DNA of 49,811 nucleotides, taken from Nitrosopumilaceae archaeon (GTDB taxonomy: Archaea > Thermoproteota > Nitrososphaeria > Nitrososphaerales > Nitrosopumilaceae). Each line of letters opens with the position of its first letter. Position 1 is the first letter of the stretch. The stretch spans positions 1 to 49,811 of the forward strand of contig JANQNN010000039.1 of the NCBI GenBank assembly GCA_028279545.1, read 5' to 3'. The translations under genes and the position numbers were made by a program. Positions 2,452 to 12,507 of this stretch are shown here, in pieces. A model generated the notes under the pieces. That model did no database searches. It was not told the origin of the DNA and saw only the letters and a program-made list of their open reading frames with translations.

Positions 2452-3041
2452 ATTTTCTAATTATCGATAATTATGATTCATTTGTATACAATATTGCACA
2501 ATATCTTGGAGAACTAGGAGTAGATTGTCAAGTTGTTCGAAATGATAAGATAACAATCGAAGAAATAAAACAAAAAAATTATGATGGCATAATAATATCT
2601 CCCGGCCCTGGAACCCCCGAGGAGGAAAAATATTTTGGAATATGTAGCAATGTTATAAAAAATATTGGAAGTAAAATTCCAATATTAGGAATTTGTTTAG
2701 GGCACCAAGGAATAATTTCTTCATTTGGAGGAAAAGTTACAAATGCTGGTTGCGTAAGGCACGGAAAAACTAGTTTAGTTAATCACACCAATTCAGAATT
2801 GTTCAAAGATGTAAAAAACCCTTTTAGAGCAACTAGATATCATTCATTAGTTGGAGATAAAACTATAATTCCAGACGTTTTGGAAGTTACTGCTTCTGCA
2901 GAAGACGATGGAGAAATAATGGCAATAAAACATAAAGAATATCTTATTGAAGGTGTACAATTTCATCCCGAATCGATAATGACTGAAGAAGGGAAAAAAA
3001 TTTTGGGAAATTTCATAAAACAGGTAAGAGAACGAAAATGA
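2448..3041 (+). CDS. trpG: anthranilate synthase component II, glutamine amidotransferase
   Basis: The 197-residue class I glutamine amidotransferase supplies ammonia to TrpE. The family opening LIIDNYDSFVYN, the oxyanion segment SPGPGTP near residue 51, the nucleophile C83 in GICLGHQ, and H173 and E175 in FHPES complete the triad. Length is normal for a stand-alone TrpG or PabA. The related PabA folate enzyme cannot be excluded by motif alone, but the position between trpE and trpD settles the role. It overlaps trpE and trpD by four bases each (ATGA), so the genes are translationally coupled. Confidence 0.95.
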   Translation: MNFLIIDNYDSFVYNIAQYLGELGVDCQVVRNDKITIEEIKQKNYDGIIISPGPGTPEEEKYFGICSNVIKNIGSKIPILGICLGHQGIISSFGGKVTNAGCVRHGKTSLVNHTNSELFKDVKNPFRATRYHSLVGDKTIIPDVLEVTASAEDDGEIMAIKHKEYLIEGVQFHPESIMTEEGKKILGNFIKQVRERK

Positions 3042-4084
3042 TTCAAGAAATTAATAGAAAATTAAAAGAAAAATCCAATCTTTCATATGAACAAATTTCT
3101 GAAACTATGACAGAAATTTTATCAGGAAATACTACTGACTTAGAAAATAAAGTATTTCTTTCTAGTTTAACTGAAAAGGGAGAAACAGACGATGAATTGT
3201 TAGGAATGTTAGAAACGATGAACAAGTTTTCTCTCAAGGTTTCAACCAAAAATAACGAAAATCTAATTGATATGTGTGGCACCGGAGGAGATTATCTTCA
3301 AACTTTTAACATTTCAACAACTGCATCTTTTGTAGTAGCAGCTGCAGGAGGCGTTGTGGCAAAACACGGAAACCGGTCAAGTTCAGGAGTATCTGGAAGT
3401 GCAGATATTTTCGAATATTTCGGATATGATTTAAACCAAAGTCCATCTCAAATCTCAAACATTATTGAAAAACACAGAATTGGTTTCATGTTTGCTCAAA
3501 AATTTCATCCTGCGATGAAATTTGTTTCGGCTGCTCGAAAACAAATAGGCAAAAGAACTGCCTTTAATCTTCTAGGACCCTTATCCAATCCTGCAGGAGT
3601 AAAAAATCAATTAATTGGAGTTTTTTCGTTAGAATTTCTTGAAAGATTACCTCTAATAATGAAAAGAAAAGGTGTAGAAAATATCATGACTGTCCGTTCT
3701 AATGATGGAATGGATGAGTTTTCCACAAGTTCAACGAACCAAATTTGTATTTTAAAAAATGATAAAATTTTAATGAACGTAATTGATCCGGAGATTCTTG
3801 GACTTCATAGATCCTCATTGAATGAAATCCAGATAAAAACAAAAGAAGATGCAATCAAATCTTTTGTGAGTGTTTTGAATAATACTGCAAATCAAGCAAT
3901 GATTGAAACTACTGCATTAAACGCAGCAGGTGGATTGATTGTTGCAAATATCGCAAAAAATTTTGAGGATGGAATTGAAATTGCATTAAAGACAATTAAA
4001 GATGGTAAAGCTTTTGCTTTGTTTGAAAATTTTGTTAGAGATACTGGCGACATTTCAAAATTAAAGGAGATTGTTAATGGCTAA
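3038..4084 (+). CDS. trpD: anthranilate phosphoribosyltransferase
   Basis: TrpD joins anthranilate to PRPP to make phosphoribosyl-anthranilate. At 348 residues it has the usual length. The N-terminal helical domain is followed by the PRPP-binding DMCGTGGD motif (GTGGD at 81-85) and the KHGNRSSS motif (109-116). FHPAMKFVSAARKQIGKRT follows further on. The start overlaps the trpG stop (ATGA) and the end overlaps the trpC start by eight bases. Confidence 0.95.
   Translation: MIQEINRKLKEKSNLSYEQISETMTEILSGNTTDLENKVFLSSLTEKGETDDELLGMLETMNKFSLKVSTKNNENLIDMCGTGGDYLQTFNISTTASFVVAAAGGVVAKHGNRSSSGVSGSADIFEYFGYDLNQSPSQISNIIEKHRIGFMFAQKFHPAMKFVSAARKQIGKRTAFNLLGPLSNPAGVKNQLIGVFSLEFLERLPLIMKRKGVENIMTVRSNDGMDEFSTSSTNQICILKNDKILMNVIDPEILGLHRSSLNEIQIKTKEDAIKSFVSVLNNTANQAMIETTALNAAGGLIVANIAKNFEDGIEIALKTIKDGKAFALFENFVRDTGDISKLKEIVNG
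4066..4069 (+). promoter_or_regulatory. ribosome binding site deciding the trpC start
   Basis: GGAG inside the end of trpD stands seven bases before the ATG at 4077. It favours that ATG over the upstream in-frame TTG at 4071. Confidence 0.5.
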
Positions 4085-4853
4085 AAATATTTTAAAAAAA
4101 TTGGTAAATAATTCTCAAATGGCAATTGATGATGGAATTTATGATGTAGATTGTAATTTAGAAAAATCATCTAAGGATTTTTTACAAATAATTAAAACAA
4201 ATCCACATGCAACTCTTCTAACGGAGATAAAATTTTCATCACCTTCCCTTGGAAAGATTCGAACGACAGGTGACCCAGTAAACATTGCAAAAAAAATGAT
4301 TAACGGTGGTTCAAAGGCTCTTTCTATTTTAACCCAACCTCATTTGTTTAATGGTTCACCTCAAATCTTTATGAAAGTTAGAAAAGAAGTGAATGTCCCC
4401 CTATTGATGAAAGATATTATTGTAGATGAAATTCAAATCGAGACTGCAAACAAAATGGGAGCAGACTATATTTTACTTATTCAATCACTTTTTGACAAGG
4501 GATATCTTAGCGAAATTGAAAAATTCATTGGTTTTGCGCATAAGAAAGATTTACAGGTTTTATTAGAAGTGCACACAAAAAGTGAATTTGAAAATGCATT
4601 AAAAACTAATGCAGATTTAATTGGTATTAACAATAGAAATTTAGATACGTTAGAAATTGATTTGAAAACCACCGAAATTATTTTACAAAAATTTGATAAA
4701 AATAGACCTATTTTATCTGAAAGTGGAATTGAGACCCCTGAGGATATCAAATATTTAAAAAAATGTGGTGCTGATGCATTTTTAATTGGCTCAAGCATTA
4801 TGAAGAGTAATAATATTGAAGAACACGTGCAAAAATTGGTGAATGCATATTGA
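4077..4853 (+). CDS. trpC: indole-3-glycerol-phosphate synthase
   Basis: TrpC closes the indole ring of carboxyphenylamino-deoxyribulose phosphate. The 258-residue (beta/alpha)8 barrel shows the family's catalytic segments in order: [45 protein letters not shown] and [11 protein letters not shown], with the lysine and glutamate residues expected for catalysis and the phosphate site near the end (FLIGSSIM). No TrpF domain is fused to it, and no separate trpF follows. The GGAG at 4066-4069 selects the ATG at 4077. The stop overlaps the TTG start of trpB. Confidence 0.95.
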
Positions 4854-6040
4854 GATACCCTAAAAATGGAAAATTTGGAGACTTTGGCGGAAGCTATATT
4901 CCGGAAACTTTAGTCCCAGCAGTACAAGAGTTAGAAGAAAATTATCTAAAATTTAAAAACGATAAAAAATTCAAAATGGAATTAGATTATTTTCTTAAAG
5001 AATATGCAGGTAGACCCACACCACTTTATTTTGCAAAAAATTTAACTGAGAAAATAGGTGGAGCAAAAATTTTCCTAAAAAGAGAAGACTTGCTTCATGG
5101 AGGTGCACACAAAATCAATAATACTCTAGGTCAAGCTTTGCTTGCAAAAAAAATGAACAAAAAAAGGATCATAGCCGAAACAGGGGCAGGTCAACATGGT
5201 GTTGCAACTGCTATGGCCTGTGCAGCATTAGGGCTTCAGGCTGAGGTATACATGGGATACAAAGATACCATCAGACAAAAACTCAATGTTTTTAGAATGA
5301 ATATGTTGGGAGCAAAAGTTCATCCTGTAAGATCTGGTTCAAAAACTCTAAAAGATGCAATTAATGAAGCAATTCGAGATTGGATAACAAATGTAGAGAA
5401 TACTTACTATCTTCTTGGTTCAGCAGTTGGACCTCATCCTTATCCAATAATGGTTAGAGACTTTCAAAGCGTAATTGGTAGAGAAATTAAATCTCAAATG
5501 AAAAAATTACAAAATAAAAACCCTGATTGTGTTATTGCCTGTGTTGGTGGGGGTTCAAACGCGATTGGAACATTTTATCCCTTGGTTGACACTAATACAG
5601 AAATTATTGGAGTTGAAGCTGCAGGTAAAGGACTAAAATCTGGATTTCATTCAGCCACTCTATCAGCTGGAAAAAAGGGGGTTTTACATGGAATGATGAC
5701 GTATCTACTGCAAGATAAAGAAGGTCAAATCACTGAAACCCATAGTATTTCAGCTGGGCTTGATTATCCAGGAGTTGGACCTGAACACTCCTATCTAAAG
5801 GATAACAAAAGAGTAAGTTATCGTTCCGCAACTGATTCTGAGGTAATCGATGCATTTTTACTATTAACAAGAACCGAGGGAATTATCCCAGCATTAGAAT
5901 CTGCTCATGCTATTGCCGAAGCAATAAAAGTTGCTCGAAGAAATAAAAAATCAGATTCAGTTGTTGTTACCTTATCAGGAAGAGGAGACAAAGACGTAGA
6001 AGAAGTACAAAACTATTTGGAAAAAAATGTCAAGAATTAA
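4850..6040 (+). CDS. trpB: tryptophan synthase beta subunit
   Basis: TrpB condenses indole with serine using PLP. The 396 residues begin with the family's [18 protein letters not shown]-binding K88 lies in GGAHKINNT, the catalytic glutamate is E110 in AETGAGQHG, and the phosphate loop is GGGSNAIG near residue 234. It is of the TrpB1 type that pairs with TrpA, which is encoded immediately downstream. The TTG start at 4850-4852 overlaps the TGA of trpC; conservation right from [10 protein letters not shown] supports it. The 3' end overlaps trpA by 14 bases. Confidence 0.95.
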
Positions 6041-6830
6041 AAAAAAATTTTCAGAGTTAGACACAAAAAACGAAAAAGCATTAATAGCTTACATTATGGC
6101 TGGATATCCAAATGAACGAGCAACTTTATCCGCAGTAAAGGGTTTGATTAAAGGAGGAGCTGACATAATTGAATTAGGGTTTCCTTTTTCCGATCCTTTA
6201 GCCGACGGCCCTGTAATTCAGAATGCTAGTACTATATCCTTAAAAAAAGGAACAAAAATTACAAAATTTTTTGAGCTGGTTAAAAAAATTAGAAGTTTTT
6301 CTGACATCCCACTTGTTTTAATGACTTATACCAATATTTTGTTTAATCAAGGATATTCAAAATTCATTTCAGATGCAACTAGAGCGGGAATTGATGGCTT
6401 TATTCTACCTGATATGTCAGTTGAGGATTCTGAAGAATATTTGAATGCAGCAAAAGGAAAAACAGATACAATTTTTTTGGTTTCACCAAATACTGAAAAA
6501 GACCGGGTTAAAAAAATTATAAACTCTACTTCTGGATTTTTGTATCTTGTTGCAGTATATGGTACAACAGGAGTAAAAACTGAAATAAAAAATTATACTC
6601 TAAAAGCAATAAAAAATATAAAAAATCACACAAAGGGAACAATTCCTGTCGGGGTGGGATTTGGTGTGTCAAAACCTTCGGATGTAAAAAAATACATTTC
6701 AGTTGGCGCCGATGCGGTAATTGTAGGAAGTGCATTTTTAAAAATAATTGAAAAAACACCTCCCAATCAAATTGAAAAAAAAATTGCGTCATTTACAAAA
6801 TCATTAAAAAAACAAACTCTGGTAAATTAA
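6027..6830 (+). CDS. trpA: tryptophan synthase alpha subunit
   Basis: TrpA cleaves indole-3-glycerol phosphate and channels indole to TrpB. The 267-residue barrel has catalytic E49 ([11 protein letters not shown]) and D60 ([11 protein letters not shown]), and the phosphate-binding segments GVGFGVSKP and IVGSAFLK towards the C-terminus. It is the last gene of the operon, overlapping trpB. After the stop there are about 120 bases without a gene before pyrG; I see no clear terminator hairpin there. Confidence 0.95.
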
Positions 6831-6950: not shown

Positions 6951-8549
6951 GTGCAGACAAAGTTCATTTTCGTAACAGGGGGGGTTATGTCAGGCCTAGG
7001 AAAGGGAGTTATGACCTCATCAGTTGCAAAATTATTACAATTAGCCAATCAAAAAGTATCTTGTGTAAAAATTGATCCCTACTTGAATTTTGATGCTGGG
7101 ACAATGAATCCTGTAGCACATGGGGAAGTTTTTGTCACCGAAGATGGCGGGGAATGTGATATGGATATTGGAAATTATGAGCGTTTTTTAAATCAAAATA
7201 TTCCAAAAAATCACAATATTACTACAGCTCAAGTTTATTCCTCAGTTATTGAATCAGAAAGAAAAGGTGAGTATTTAGGAGCATGTGTTCAAATTATTCC
7301 TCATATTACTGATGAAATAAAAAATAGAATTAGAACAATTGCAAAAGATGAAAATTTGGATTTTTTGGTTGTAGAATGCGGTGGAACTGTTGGCGATATT
7401 GAATCACTTCCATTTTTAGAAGCTCTTAGACAAATGAGAGTAGAAGAAGGACCTAAAAATGTCCTTTTTGTACATGTTACTCTTGCACCTTCTTTGGATG
7501 TTGTTGGTGAGCAAAAAACAAAACCAACTCAACATAGTGTACAAGAATTACGAAGAATAGGTATCCAACCTGACTTTTTGGCTGTAAGATGCACTCAACC
7601 CTTGGAGGAAAAAACCAAGAAAAAAATTGCATTATTTACAAATGTAACTTCAGAAGATGTTCTTTCTTGTCATGATGCTAAAACCATTTTTGAAGTACCT
7701 CAAATTCTATATGACCAAGGTATTTTGGATTTTATTTTTACAAAATTTGGCAAAGTTGGAATGGTAAATGCCTCTGCAAATTGGGATGATTGGAATCGGA
7801 TAGCTGAATCCATGGTTAATCATAAAGACCAAAAAATAAAAATTGCCATGGTAGGAAAATATGTTACTTTAGCAGATAGTTATGTTAGCGTAAACCAGGC
7901 ACTAAAGCACGCAGGAGCCAAACTTGGGAAATCTGTGATTATTGACTGGATTGATTCAGAATCTATTAATGATTATAACCAACTTTCAGATTTTGATGGC
8001 ATTCTTGTTCCTGGAGGATTTGGCACAAGAGGCTCAGAAGGAATAATAAAAACTGCAAATTTTGCAAGAGAAAACAACATCCCATATCTTGGAATTTGTT
8101 TTGGATTTCAACTAGCAGCAATTGCATTCGGACGAGAAATTTTAAAATTAGAAGACGCAAATTCAACTGAAATTAAAAAAGATGCAAAAAACCCCGTTGT
8201 AGATTTACTTCCAGAGCAAAAGAAAATATCAGATATGGGTGGGTCCTTAAGACTTGGAGGGCATCAAATTACAATAAAACCAAATACTATATCTCAAGTA
8301 ATTTACGAGTCAAATTCAATTAAAAAAAGACATCGACATCGTTATGAAATAAATTCCAATTACATTGAAGAATTTGAAAAAAATGGAATGATCTTTTCTG
8401 CAGAAAGTGATGATGGAAAGAGAATGGAAATTTTAGAAATACCTAGTCATAAATTCTATTTGGGAGTACAATTTCACCCAGAATTTAATAGCAGACCAGG
8501 ATTTCCTGAAAAAGCTTTTCTTTCTTTTATAGAGGCAGCTTCAAAATAG
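6951..8549 (+). CDS. pyrG: CTP synthase
   Basis: PyrG makes CTP from UTP, ATP and glutamine. The 532 residues contain an N-terminal synthetase domain with the nucleotide loop [11 protein letters not shown] (9-19) and [12 protein letters not shown] (141-152). A C-terminal glutamine amidotransferase domain follows, with nucleophile C383 in GICFGFQ and H509 and E511 in FHPEF. Length is typical. The start is GTG 6951; the ATG two bases earlier is in another frame. The gene converges on the NAD kinase gene with a single base between the two stop codons, so the 3' ends of the two transcripts must overlap. Confidence 0.97.
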
Positions 8550-8550
8550 T

Positions 8551-9561
8551 TTATTCAATTTTAGAAATTTCATAAATTTTTTGTCGCGCATCTCTTACAG
8601 AAACTTTCTTTTTTACATAGCCTTTATCTAATAAATGACTAAGAGCTAACCGAACAGTTCTGTCTGGCAACAGAGTTTTATTTGATAGATCCTTTTGGGT
8701 TAACGCTCCTTCATACTCCAAAGTTTTTAAAAGTAATTTAGAACTTGGAGGCATACTCAATAATTCTTCTGCCAAATGTGCTTTTTTTGCCAAAGCGGAA
8801 ATCGCAGTAGAATCTTTTTTGAGACGAATAATTTTTGCTGGGGGAAGAAATTGGGTGCATTCTACTATTTTGTTAACTTTGTATCTTTCAAGACCATCTA
8901 AAACCACTTCACAGTGCAAACGTGCAGAAATATCATCTATTTCAATTGAACTCTGGTTAGAAACAATTATTGGCCGTCTATTCACGTTCAATGAGTTTAC
9001 TGAAATTATTTCAAAAACCTCTGAATCCTCGAAAATAACCGGGCCTCCCGCAGACATTGAATAGGCAGAAGAACCAATTGGTGTGGAAATAATTATTCCA
9101 TCACTACTATCATGCCACACCTCTTCACCATTTAGACTAAGTGTATGCTCCATTAACATTGCACTTTTTGAGGGAAAAATTGCAACGTCATTTAAAACTG
9201 GAAATACATTTTTTCCATCAATTTTTACTCCTAATCGTGGGATTTCCTCAATTGAATAATTTTGTTTTTTTAATCTATTAACATATGATGAGAATTCTTT
9301 AAGGTCAATTTGAGCTAAAAAACCGCCATATTCACCTTCATTAATTCCTAAAACAGGTGAAGTAGAATCAAATTCCCTGTGAAAATAATTTCTAATCCCT
9401 TTATCTCCTCCTAGAACTATAATGCAATCAAATTCTTTTTTTTTTGACTTTGGTGTTATGATAAAGGGTTTGATATTTTTCTCAACAAGTATTTTTTTAA
9501 TTATTTTTTGAGATGAGGTTGAACCTGATCCGTAAATTCCAATCTGCACAGAGGACTTCAT
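8551..9561 (-). CDS. NAD kinase with a C-terminal winged-helix domain
   Basis: Residues 1-250 are an ATP-NAD kinase domain, which phosphorylates NAD to NADP. The motifs are VLGGDKGIRNYF (50-60), LNDVAIF (123-129) and DGIIISTPIGSSAYSMSAGG (154-173). The usual GGDGT motif reads GGDKG here, so the glycine after the catalytic aspartate is a lysine. Residues about 265-334 form a winged helix-turn-helix of MarR/ArsR type (SSKLLLKTLEYEGALTQKDL, then RTVRLALSHLLDKGYV) that ordinary NAD kinases lack. The fusion suggests a kinase that also binds nucleic acid or senses a ligand; this is inference. It follows the PfkB-like gene after 25 bases on the same strand. Confidence 0.88.
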   Translation of the reverse strand: MKSSVQIGIYGSGSTSSQKIIKKILVEKNIKPFIITPKSKKKEFDCIIVLGGDKGIRNYFHREFDSTSPVLGINEGEYGGFLAQIDLKEFSSYVNRLKKQNYSIEEIPRLGVKIDGKNVFPVLNDVAIFPSKSAMLMEHTLSLNGEEVWHDSSDGIIISTPIGSSAYSMSAGGPVIFEDSEVFEIISVNSLNVNRRPIIVSNQSSIEIDDISARLHCEVVLDGLERYKVNKIVECTQFLPPAKIIRLKKDSTAISALAKKAHLAEELLSMPPSSKLLLKTLEYEGALTQKDLSNKTLLPDRTVRLALSHLLDKGYVKKKVSVRDARQKIYEISKIE

Positions 9562-9586: not shown

Positions 9587-10459
9587 CTAAATGGACCTGT
9601 ATTTTATTAAATTGTAAAAATACGAGGCATTATTTTCTATAGTTCTCTTTTTGGGTATTTTCAAAAGACCCACATTTTTTGAATCAAGAGCCGCTTGAGC
9701 CGCTCCTCCTGCAAAGCATAAAGCCCAAAGAAAATCATTTTCTTTTATCATGGTGCAGCAAAAGGATGAACAAAAAATGTCACCTATTCCTGTGGTATCA
9801 TAAATTTTTTTATTAGGTAGTGAAATGGAGTAAATTCTATTTTTTGTCAACATTGAGATTTCAGTTTTGTTGGTAAAGATAACATGTTCTACGCCTTTTT
9901 TTTGTAGCAGTCCTAATGCACTATCATTTGAAGTTCCAACTAATTGCAAGGCTTCTTCTGGATTTACTTTAATTGCATTTACATTTGACAATTCAAGGTT
10001 TGTTTTTTCTAAAAAAATTTCTTTTTTAGGATTTACTCTTCTTAAAAATCCCTGAGGATCTAAAAATAAAAATTTAGAATCTTTTTTTATTTTTTGAAAG
10101 TTTTCTTCTGAAATTTCGTGAAAAATTGGACTTACTAAAAAAGCATCAGCATTTATCTTTACATAATCAATTGGTTCACATTGGTGTTCTAATGTTAAAT
10201 TTCTATCAGAACCTTGTATAGTAATAGAAAATTTTGTTGTGTTTTTTTCACTTAGAGCATTTTCAAAATTTATTTTATTTTTAGAAAGATATTGTTGGTA
10301 TGGAAAGTCAGGACCAAATTTGGTTACAAGTTCAACATCGAAATTAAAATTTTTTGCAGTTATTCCCCCATAACATGCAGCTCCTCCAATTTGTTCAAAT
10401 TCTGAATCTTCAATTGAGATCTTATCAATTGCACAATGGGAAAATACACTGATTTTCAA
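9587..10459 (-). CDS. PfkB-family carbohydrate/nucleoside kinase
   Basis: The 290 residues match the ribokinase/PfkB fold. An N-terminal IGGAACYGGITAKNF segment corresponds to the substrate-binding GGxxxN-type region, and DTTGIGDIFCSSF near residue 220 is the DTxGAGD signature with the catalytic aspartate. The substrate cannot be read from sequence: sugars, nucleosides and cofactor precursors are all possible. The start is TTG 10457-10459, with no in-frame ATG upstream. It lies 25 bases before the NAD kinase gene and 15 bases after a 38-residue zinc-ribbon gene, so the three probably form one transcript. Confidence 0.85.
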   Translation of the reverse strand: MKISVFSHCAIDKISIEDSEFEQIGGAACYGGITAKNFNFDVELVTKFGPDFPYQQYLSKNKINFENALSEKNTTKFSITIQGSDRNLTLEHQCEPIDYVKINADAFLVSPIFHEISEENFQKIKKDSKFLFLDPQGFLRRVNPKKEIFLEKTNLELSNVNAIKVNPEEALQLVGTSNDSALGLLQKKGVEHVIFTNKTEISMLTKNRIYSISLPNKKIYDTTGIGDIFCSSFCCTMIKENDFLWALCFAGGAAQAALDSKNVGLLKIPKKRTIENNASYFYNLIKYRSI

Positions 10460-10941: not shown

Positions 10942-12507
10942 ATGAGTACTTTAAAAAATAAAAATTTTCAAATGTTTACAATTGTTTTTGCCACAATTCT
11001 TGTTTTAACTTTTTCTTTTGGGGGAATTATTCATGCTGCAGATTTTGAGAATACAAATTCTGGCACAAACAGAAACCCTCCAATTATCACTTCTCTTTCA
11101 GAAGGAGGACGAGTAATTTGGATGCAACTTGGTGAAATTGCCCCAAGTTTTGATATAATTATTGATGGGGTAAATACAACTACACAATACAGAACATCAT
11201 CATTAATACAAACAGTTGAAGGGGGAACATGTTTCATTATTCAAGCAATATATGATGATGAGCTATTGAATTCAAACGAAGTGTGTTTTGATCCTGAACC
11301 AACAACGGAGTCAGAACCAACAACTGAGTCAGAACCAACAACTAAGCCTGAACAAACAACTGAATCTGAACCAGCACCTGAATCTGAGATTAAATTTATT
11401 CCAGTAAGAGAGCCCCCTGTAATAACATCAATAACAGAAGGAAAACAAATTTCTTGGATGCAAGAAGGTGAAATTGCAGAAAGTTTTGATATTATTGTTG
11501 ATGGTGAGGACACAGATGTGCAATATAGGACTTCATCGTTTACACAAAAAGTAGAAAGTGGAAATTGTTTTATTGTACAAGCTGTATATGATGATGAACT
11601 ATTGAATTCAAATGAAGTGTGTTTTGACCCGGAACCAGAACAAAACTTACTTCTTAATCCATGTCCTCCAGGTAAAACTCTAATTGCCGTGTTTCCTTTT
11701 TGCGTAACTGAACCAGGGTTAGAAGAAATTGAATCTCCTCAAAATGAATTTGATAGATTCGGAATAATTCACTTGTATCCAACAGAGGGACGAATTTTTG
11801 AAAGTCATTGGGATGAAGGGGGTCCCAGAACACTTCATTTCCAAGATAGAGATCCTATTGACAGCGAATTGGTTATTCAGGGTCGAAATCCAGAGGTGGT
11901 AATTGATGGAAAAGGAATTGCAACAATGCAGGGTGAAATTAAAGGTCATGTAGCCAATCCAAGAATACATGTTTTTGATGAAGAACGAGAAAAAACTTGG
12001 GAAAATACCGAAATTACGGTTTATTTAAAGAGAGGACATGAATTCCAACCATTATCCTATGCAGGATTAAATCTTAATTCAAGAAGCGAACACCAAGATG
12101 CACACCTTGACCCAGAAAATGGGCAATCTTACAGTGGGCGTTTTACCTATTTTGGTAAAACCGAATTTGTAAAAGAAGTTATTCACGGAGGTCTTTATGC
12201 AAATGCAGATACCCAACGGTATTCGTGGAATACTTCAAATGGACAAATGCCATTTAACCAGTGGGTAGGTATAAAATTAATCACATATGACTTACCAAAT
12301 GGCAATGTAAAATTGGAATTGTACATGGATTTAACTGATGGATTAGAAGGTGGAGACTGGAAAAAGACCAATGAATTTATCGATGATGGCAATTGGGAAG
12401 GTAGAATTTTTGAAGATCCTGCAACCTCCGTTTGGATAAAAAATGATGGATTGGGAGCTGCAAAATACAAGAATTTTAGTGTTAGAGAAATTATTCCACC
12501 ACAATAA
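10942..12507 (+). CDS. secreted protein with two tandem repeats and a jelly-roll-like C-terminal domain
   Basis: The 521-residue protein has a signal peptide (hydrophobic 10-30, likely cleavage after HAA at 31-33). Two repeats of about 75 residues follow, at 46-120 and 158-232. Both read PP.ITS..EG then ..W.Q.GEIA.SFDII.DG, and both close with YDDELLNSNEVCFDPEP, each carrying a cysteine pair (about 97/115 and 209/227). Between them lies an acidic Thr-Glu-Pro linker (TTESEP units, 121-149). Residues about 270-521 look like the concanavalin-type domain common in secreted thaumarchaeal proteins (NQWVGIKLITYDLPNGNVKL near 445). A role in binding surface carbohydrate is inferred from that fold only. 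Confidence 0.75.
   Translation: MSTLKNKNFQMFTIVFATILVLTFSFGGIIHAADFENTNSGTNRNPPIITSLSEGGRVIWMQLGEIAPSFDIIIDGVNTTTQYRTSSLIQTVEGGTCFIIQAIYDDELLNSNEVCFDPEPTTESEPTTESEPTTKPEQTTESEPAPESEIKFIPVREPPVITSITEGKQISWMQEGEIAESFDIIVDGEDTDVQYRTSSFTQKVESGNCFIVQAVYDDELLNSNEVCFDPEPEQNLLLNPCPPGKTLIAVFPFCVTEPGLEEIESPQNEFDRFGIIHLYPTEGRIFESHWDEGGPRTLHFQDRDPIDSELVIQGRNPEVVIDGKGIATMQGEIKGHVANPRIHVFDEEREKTWENTEITVYLKRGHEFQPLSYAGLNLNSRSEHQDAHLDPENGQSYSGRFTYFGKTEFVKEVIHGGLYANADTQRYSWNTSNGQMPFNQWVGIKLITYDLPNGNVKLELYMDLTDGLEGGDWKKTNEFIDDGNWEGRIFEDPATSVWIKNDGLGAAKYKNFSVREIIPPQ

Follow-up and report, generated by a model that had tools for sequence, protein, structure and literature searches.

The window analysed here, a stretch of 49,811 nt on contig JANQNN010000039.1 of a Nitrosopumilaceae archaeon to which all positions refer, carries at 8551–9561 on the minus strand (ATG at 9561) a gene for a 336-aa protein that joins an NAD-kinase-like fold to a winged helix (hereafter the fused protein), as delineated from the ORF, Pfam, the family alignment and a structure model; the plus strand over the same interval has stops throughout. 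The NAD kinase N-terminal domain (residues 37–101; 9259–9453, minus strand) was matched by PF01513 (E 2.8e-7) and the C-terminal domain, NAD_kinase_C (residues 123–231; 8869–9195, minus strand), by PF20143 (E 6e-21), both above their cut-offs, which identifies an NAD kinase fold. The family alignment places the NE/D short motif, here Asn124-Asp125, at 9187–9192 and the conserved region II with its lead-in (residues 149–174, WHDSSDG..TPIGSSAYSMSAGGP) at 9040–9117, both on the minus strand, their roles following the motif definitions in a section of PMC8553519 that names GGDG, NE/D and region II as the defining motifs of NAD kinases. The GGDG(T/N/S) motif of NAD kinase (EC 2.7.1.23) is absent, and residues 51–55 (9397–9411, minus strand) read GGDKG, with lysine replacing the glycine after the catalytic Asp53, as claimed in the initial annotation. 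The full-length model shows an NAD kinase fold and a separate winged helix at a mean pLDDT of 80.1, and superimposes on 7qvs, the Pseudomonas aeruginosa NAD kinase with NADP, with a Z of 26.6 and an rmsd of 3.2 over 261 residues.

The MarR-type winged helix occupies residues 270–332 (8566–8754, minus strand), and several lines of evidence bear out its earlier recognition: MarR_2 matched residues 270–327 (E 1.8e-5, 25.2 bits, just below the 27-bit cut-off), the pLDDT exceeds 88 across most of residues 272–332 in the full-length model, and the tail modelled alone reached 87.9, with MarR-family structures, some of them operator-bound (8ylg, 5h3r, 5hlg), as the best Foldseek rows. It is also the best conserved segment of the protein, with a mean of 0.65; the two kinase halves score 0.44 and 0.60, and values elsewhere are lower. 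That it might be an ordinary C-terminal element of NAD kinases was ruled out, as canonical paralogues end before it, and no second copy of the winged helix was found in the source genome at E up to 1. The likeness to MarR-family proteins lies in the fold of this segment, whereas MarR's own dimerisation helices, a feature of that family, have no counterpart in the fused protein, so that the kinase fold would have to provide the dimer contact.

Directly upstream of the fused gene, across a gap of 25 bp, lies a PfkB-family kinase gene on the same strand (9587–10459, minus strand; PF00294, E 1.7e-12) with no NCBIfam match, and downstream lies a convergent gene identified by eye as CTP synthase (6951–8549). 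Among the 77 fused loci that were clustered, the PfkB arrangement recurs in 17, all from ammonia oxidisers, and was seen in no other lineage; the CTP synthase gene adjoins the fused gene in 19 loci, likewise from ammonia oxidisers. The PfkB kinase, a regular companion of the fused gene in these organisms, may act in NAD or nucleoside salvage. Elsewhere in the window, trpD, trpC, trpB and trpA (3038–6830, assigned by eye) precede the CTP synthase gene, and 10942–12507 encodes a protein predicted to be secreted, in which a linker of Thr-Glu-Ser-Glu-Pro repeats joins two near-repeats of some 75 residues.

The lysine at position 54 recurs across the family. At the level of the order, 120 homologues have a letter at this position, which is Lys in 86 and Arg in 29, whereas all 17 canonical paralogues have Gly. 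At the level of the phylum, the 81 scorable fused proteins have Arg (48), Lys (20), Ser (6), Gly (5), Asn (1) and Asp (1), as against Gly in 30/30 canonical proteins, and GGDGT was observed in 0/81 fused proteins and in all 30 canonical paralogues of the alignment. Judged from these alignments, Lys or Arg at position 54 is more than a chance substitution. In the same 81 proteins Gly51 and Asp53 are invariant, and among 82 fused family members the NE/D motif retains its Asn in 82/82 and Glu or Asp in 82/82; Asn124, Asp151, Asp154, Gly155, Gly163, Ser164 and Asp222 are invariant and Tyr167 is found in 81/82. In M. tuberculosis Ppnk, Asp85, Asn159, Glu160, Thr200 and Tyr202 are reported as vital in a section of PMC8553519, and in this analysis they map by motif spacing onto Asp53, Asn124, Asp125, Ser165 and Tyr167. 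With these residues kept and GGDGT lost, the NAD side of the site is retained and the donor side changed. In the canonical NAD kinases of this class, region II mostly reads Gly-His (His in 19/30) where other NAD kinases have Ala-Tyr; the Tyr of Ala-Tyr is nevertheless reported as vital in M. tuberculosis.

Fused proteins whose sequence extends as far as the winged helix were recovered from 25 numbered families of the phylum Thermoproteota (15 among the matches listed in the phylum sample, 7 more from the order search and 3 more from a further search), while many other families of the phylum sample lack them. In a maximum-likelihood tree restricted to the kinase domain, one branch with a support of 100/99 separated 82 fused from 30 canonical proteins; the protein of the window is no isolated oddity and belongs to a separate clade running through the phylum. 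The source genome encodes a second NAD kinase of 279 aa that has GGDGT and no winged helix. In the order search 161/201 genomes gave a match, mostly two each (one fused and one canonical), and in the phylum sample 293/300 genomes matched the NAD kinase profile, with at least one further match in 38/38 single-contig genomes that carry a fused protein (rows counted by hand; the motif of the second kinase was read in the 30 aligned canonical sequences). The fused gene is therefore not needed for making NADP in these carriers. The family models in use name the fused proteins NAD kinase, every match falling below its cut-off, and as a statement of activity this label is probably wrong. Six near-complete genomes from two families of the order gave no NAD kinase match even with the profile at 1e-10; the enzyme may be absent from them or may have diverged strongly.

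The initial annotation had proposed that the kinase either moonlights as a regulator or uses a changed phosphoryl donor, and a bifunctional protein of this kind would combine regulation with genuine NAD kinase activity on a different phosphoryl donor or acceptor (polyphosphate, NADH). Such a protein would account for the retention of the catalytic Asp, NE/D and region II in all or nearly all members, including the residues matching those reported as vital in Ppnk (PMC8553519), and for the Asn or Ser that most order-level members have at residue 152, the position matching Ppnk Arg187 by motif spacing; the invariance of Asp53, which a pure sensor does not strictly need, also counts against a sensor without catalysis. 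Set against it are the Lys or Arg in place of the GGDG glycine in 68/81 proteins and the absence of GGDGT from 81/81, where 124/127 archaeal NAD kinases have GGDGT according to the review PMC8553519, and the second NAD kinase match in every single-contig carrier. We regard the bifunctional enzyme as improbable: of the moonlighting claim the regulatory part is strongly supported, and the kinase part has become the less likely one.

Evidence for regulation comes from the gene neighbourhoods. nadA is found in 14/77 and nadC in 15/77 fused loci. Most of these genes lie upstream of the fused gene and are read from the other strand, and the median distance of nadA is 101 bp. Groups of nadA, aspartate dehydrogenase and nadC genes are divergent from the fused gene in six loci (L193 among them, whose three nad genes were confirmed by Pfam) and the nad genes are co-directional and downstream in three (L214, L215 and L220); in the source genome they lie on another contig than the fused gene. 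nadA was matched in 22/45 chosen carrier genomes (two of the matches being short fragments) and in none of the other 23, and across the phylum the co-occurrence of the fused gene with nadA was not significant (22/45 vs 17/45 genomes, p 0.40). One genome without the fused gene has three nadA genes. In several genomes lacking nadA the fused gene faces an MFS gene, and the best family of 5/5 such neighbours tested was TIGR00895, aromatic acid/H+ symport, below its cut-off; for one of the five (L216), the nadA match of the genome contains a stop. The TIGR00895 family includes the NiaP-type nicotinate importers. In four loci of family f42 the fused gene is divergent from a transporter of the amino-acid-permease type rather than MFS; nadA is missing from 4/4 f42 genomes tested, and this transporter is possibly a niacin-related importer.

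A palindrome, GGCAA-N3-TTGCC, was first spotted by reading the upstream regions of fused genes. A hand-made motif, GGCAANNNTTGCC, gave a mixed result on 20 unseen fused upstreams (4/20 at p<0.05; Fisher 0.03), the four comprising 3/3 from family f29 and one f50 locus, with upstreams of f45, f42, f32, f33 and f52 not reaching p 0.05. An unsupervised palindrome search was then used in its place on 78 fused upstreams, which formed 37 clusters and excluded the window's family. It returned GGCAATAATTGCC with a score of 32.1, whereas the best of 24 shuffled sets reached 28.9. Outside the window's family, a GGCAATAATTGCC site was present before nadA in 10/12 carriers in which nadA is unlinked to the fused gene (on another contig or far away; shuffle p<0.05, Fisher 1.6e-11), mostly 104–131 bp ahead of the NadA domain, the exceptions being L299 and L305, whereas a site preceded nadA in 0/19 loci of 17 genomes where no fused gene was found (Mann-Whitney 3.7e-6; 10/12 vs 0/19, Fisher exact 1.5e-6).

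In the window's own family, four upstream regions were examined, nadA only after a genome-wide pattern search had pointed there; the strict pattern otherwise falls mostly inside coding sequence. The site lies upstream of nadA in 23/23 genomes with a verified fused gene, in 21/23 at the lowest possible p of 0.003, a count that leaves out G552, G553 and G554, which have the site as well and are not verified as carriers. The site of the source genome, GGCAAAAATTGTC, lies 77 bp before the nadA ATG, right behind nadB. No clear enrichment was seen in this family before nadB (4/26 at p<0.05), nadC (3/23) or pfkB; another conserved block before nadB, GACTANAATTAATTA, was set aside as TATA-like in look and not shared with nadC. 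In the combined comparison, the site was found in 33/35 cases with and 2/22 without a verified fused gene (Fisher exact 4e-11, a value that overstates independence, as the species are related). In the reverse direction, a matrix built from the nadA sites of the window's family recovered 22/78 fused upstreams in 10/37 clusters (Fisher 1e-6), a test not fully independent, since the first matrix had already picked up these sites; no cis site precedes the fused gene in several families (f32, f45). The restriction of cis sites to 22/78 upstreams counts against the proposed regulator, as do the mixed result of the hand-made motif, the two unlinked nadA genes that have no site and the lack of sites before nadB, nadC and pfkB in the window's family.

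The palindrome thus tracks the fused gene, and its binding by the fused protein is a prediction from this pattern. Binding by some other regulator, with the fused protein an enzyme merely near NAD genes, would agree with two genomes, G290 (93% complete) and G552 (77%), that carry the site and in which the fused gene was not detected, while a third, G292, lacks both. This reading seems very unlikely to us: the site follows the fused gene outside the window's family in the comparison given above, no part of the protein is better conserved than the winged helix, and the association of the fused gene with nad genes persists whether they are divergent from it or co-directional. By neighbourhood, palindrome and Pfam matches, the fused gene displays the linkage and upstream sites of a regulator of NAD biosynthesis, and the earlier suggestion that a kinase-winged-helix protein would contact DNA and regulate is strongly supported by the neighbourhood and the predicted operator.

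The promoters of ammonia oxidisers bear on the sign of control. TTTAAA occurs once within 75 bp of the operator in 30/32 nadA promoters from four families of the order and is absent from the other 2, at a distance from the operator of 41 bp (3 promoters), 42 bp (20), 43 bp (6) or 44 bp (1), while most bases between them are poorly conserved and the start codon lies at a variable distance (-2 to 37) from the TATA box. Spacing as strict as this, close to four helical turns, is suggestive of contact with the basal machinery and so leans to activation. In L193 the site is, by eye, much nearer the nadA TATA box, so the 41–44 bp geometry is not general. The fixed site upstream of the TATA box tips the balance slightly towards activation of nadA over repression.

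Taken together, the fused protein is probably a transcription factor derived from NAD kinase that controls NAD supply through GGCAA-N3-TTGCC, its likely target being nadA, the gene with which NAD synthesis begins. The fusion, the motif loss, the separate clade and the gene linkage are read directly from the sequences, as are the cis and trans occurrences of the palindrome, its absence without the gene and the fixed TATA distance in ammonia oxidisers. In the proposed mechanism the kinase fold, which has lost the phosphate-donor signature GGDGT, would keep the NAD pocket, and the C-terminal winged helix would bind the palindrome as a dimer before nadA (with nadB and nadC in many lineages) or, in lineages that lack de novo synthesis, before a putative niacin importer. 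In true NAD kinases the substrate pocket lies at a subunit contact; the NAD site takes in two residues of the neighbouring subunit according to a passage in PMC8553519. NAD(P)(H) in the old substrate pocket could change the spacing of the two winged helices, and Lys or Arg in place of Gly might block ATP or hold the 2'-phosphate of NADP(H). The kept NAD-site residues suggest a response to NAD or a precursor, and the proposed ligand, the direction of control and the presumed loss of catalysis are likewise conditional.

The pocket might also sense something other than NAD(P)(H), for example quinolinate, nicotinate mononucleotide or whatever the adjacent PfkB kinase produces. In ammonia oxidisers the PfkB gene is indeed constantly present upstream; conservation, however, centres on residues of the NAD site, and the partner is not seen in the other clustered lineages, which makes this alternative unlikely, if less so than those weighed above. 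Returning to NAD(P)(H) as the signal, the parts may be joined in a single tentative reading, to which we give somewhat less than an even chance: factors made from NAD kinase occur throughout the phylum, the ATP loop with Gly changed to Lys or Arg serves as an NADP(H) sensor, the ligand at the kinase subunit contact sets the pair of winged helices, and, in ammonia oxidisers, the free form activates nadA from the palindrome, which there lies upstream of the TATA box by four helical turns.

Compared with canonical NAD kinases (7qvs, 1u0r, 1suw), the fused protein shares the fold, the catalytic Asp, NE/D and region II, and differs in lacking GGDGT, in the Lys or Arg for glycine, in the added winged helix and in forming a separate clade beside a canonical paralogue. 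The bifunctional NADP phosphatase/NAD kinase (MJ0917; NCBIfam PRK14076) is another archaeal NAD kinase fusion, with a phosphatase partner and the kinase motif intact as GGDGT (as given in a portion of PMC8553519). NrtR proteins are described in a section of PMC10311068 as Nudix-related regulators of NAD metabolism in bacteria, and the same paper found that none of the four S. acidocaldarius Nudix proteins has an HTH. The fused protein resembles NrtR in combining an enzyme-derived sensor domain with a C-terminal DNA-binding domain and in the control of NAD genes, and differs from the bacterial, Nudix-based NrtR in having NAD kinase as its sensor; its N-terminal domains are NAD kinase by Pfam and not Nudix-like. 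NiaR and NadR are bacterial NAD/niacin repressors controlling nad genes and niacin uptake; the predicted targets are alike, and the sensor domains are unrelated. No archaeal member of NiaR or NadR was met in the open-licence papers searched, and no paper on a fusion of NAD kinase with a winged helix or on an archaeal NAD regulator was found in the open-licence literature, in which archaeal control of NAD supply appears to be undescribed.

What the present analysis provides across Thermoproteota, the ammonia oxidisers included, is a protein family together with a predicted operator and predicted targets, with which the control of NAD supply in archaea becomes directly testable. If the proposed role is true, an essential enzyme family has given rise to a gene switch, a sensor of vitamin level built from an enzyme, and the fused protein would be the first regulator of NAD supply described in archaea.
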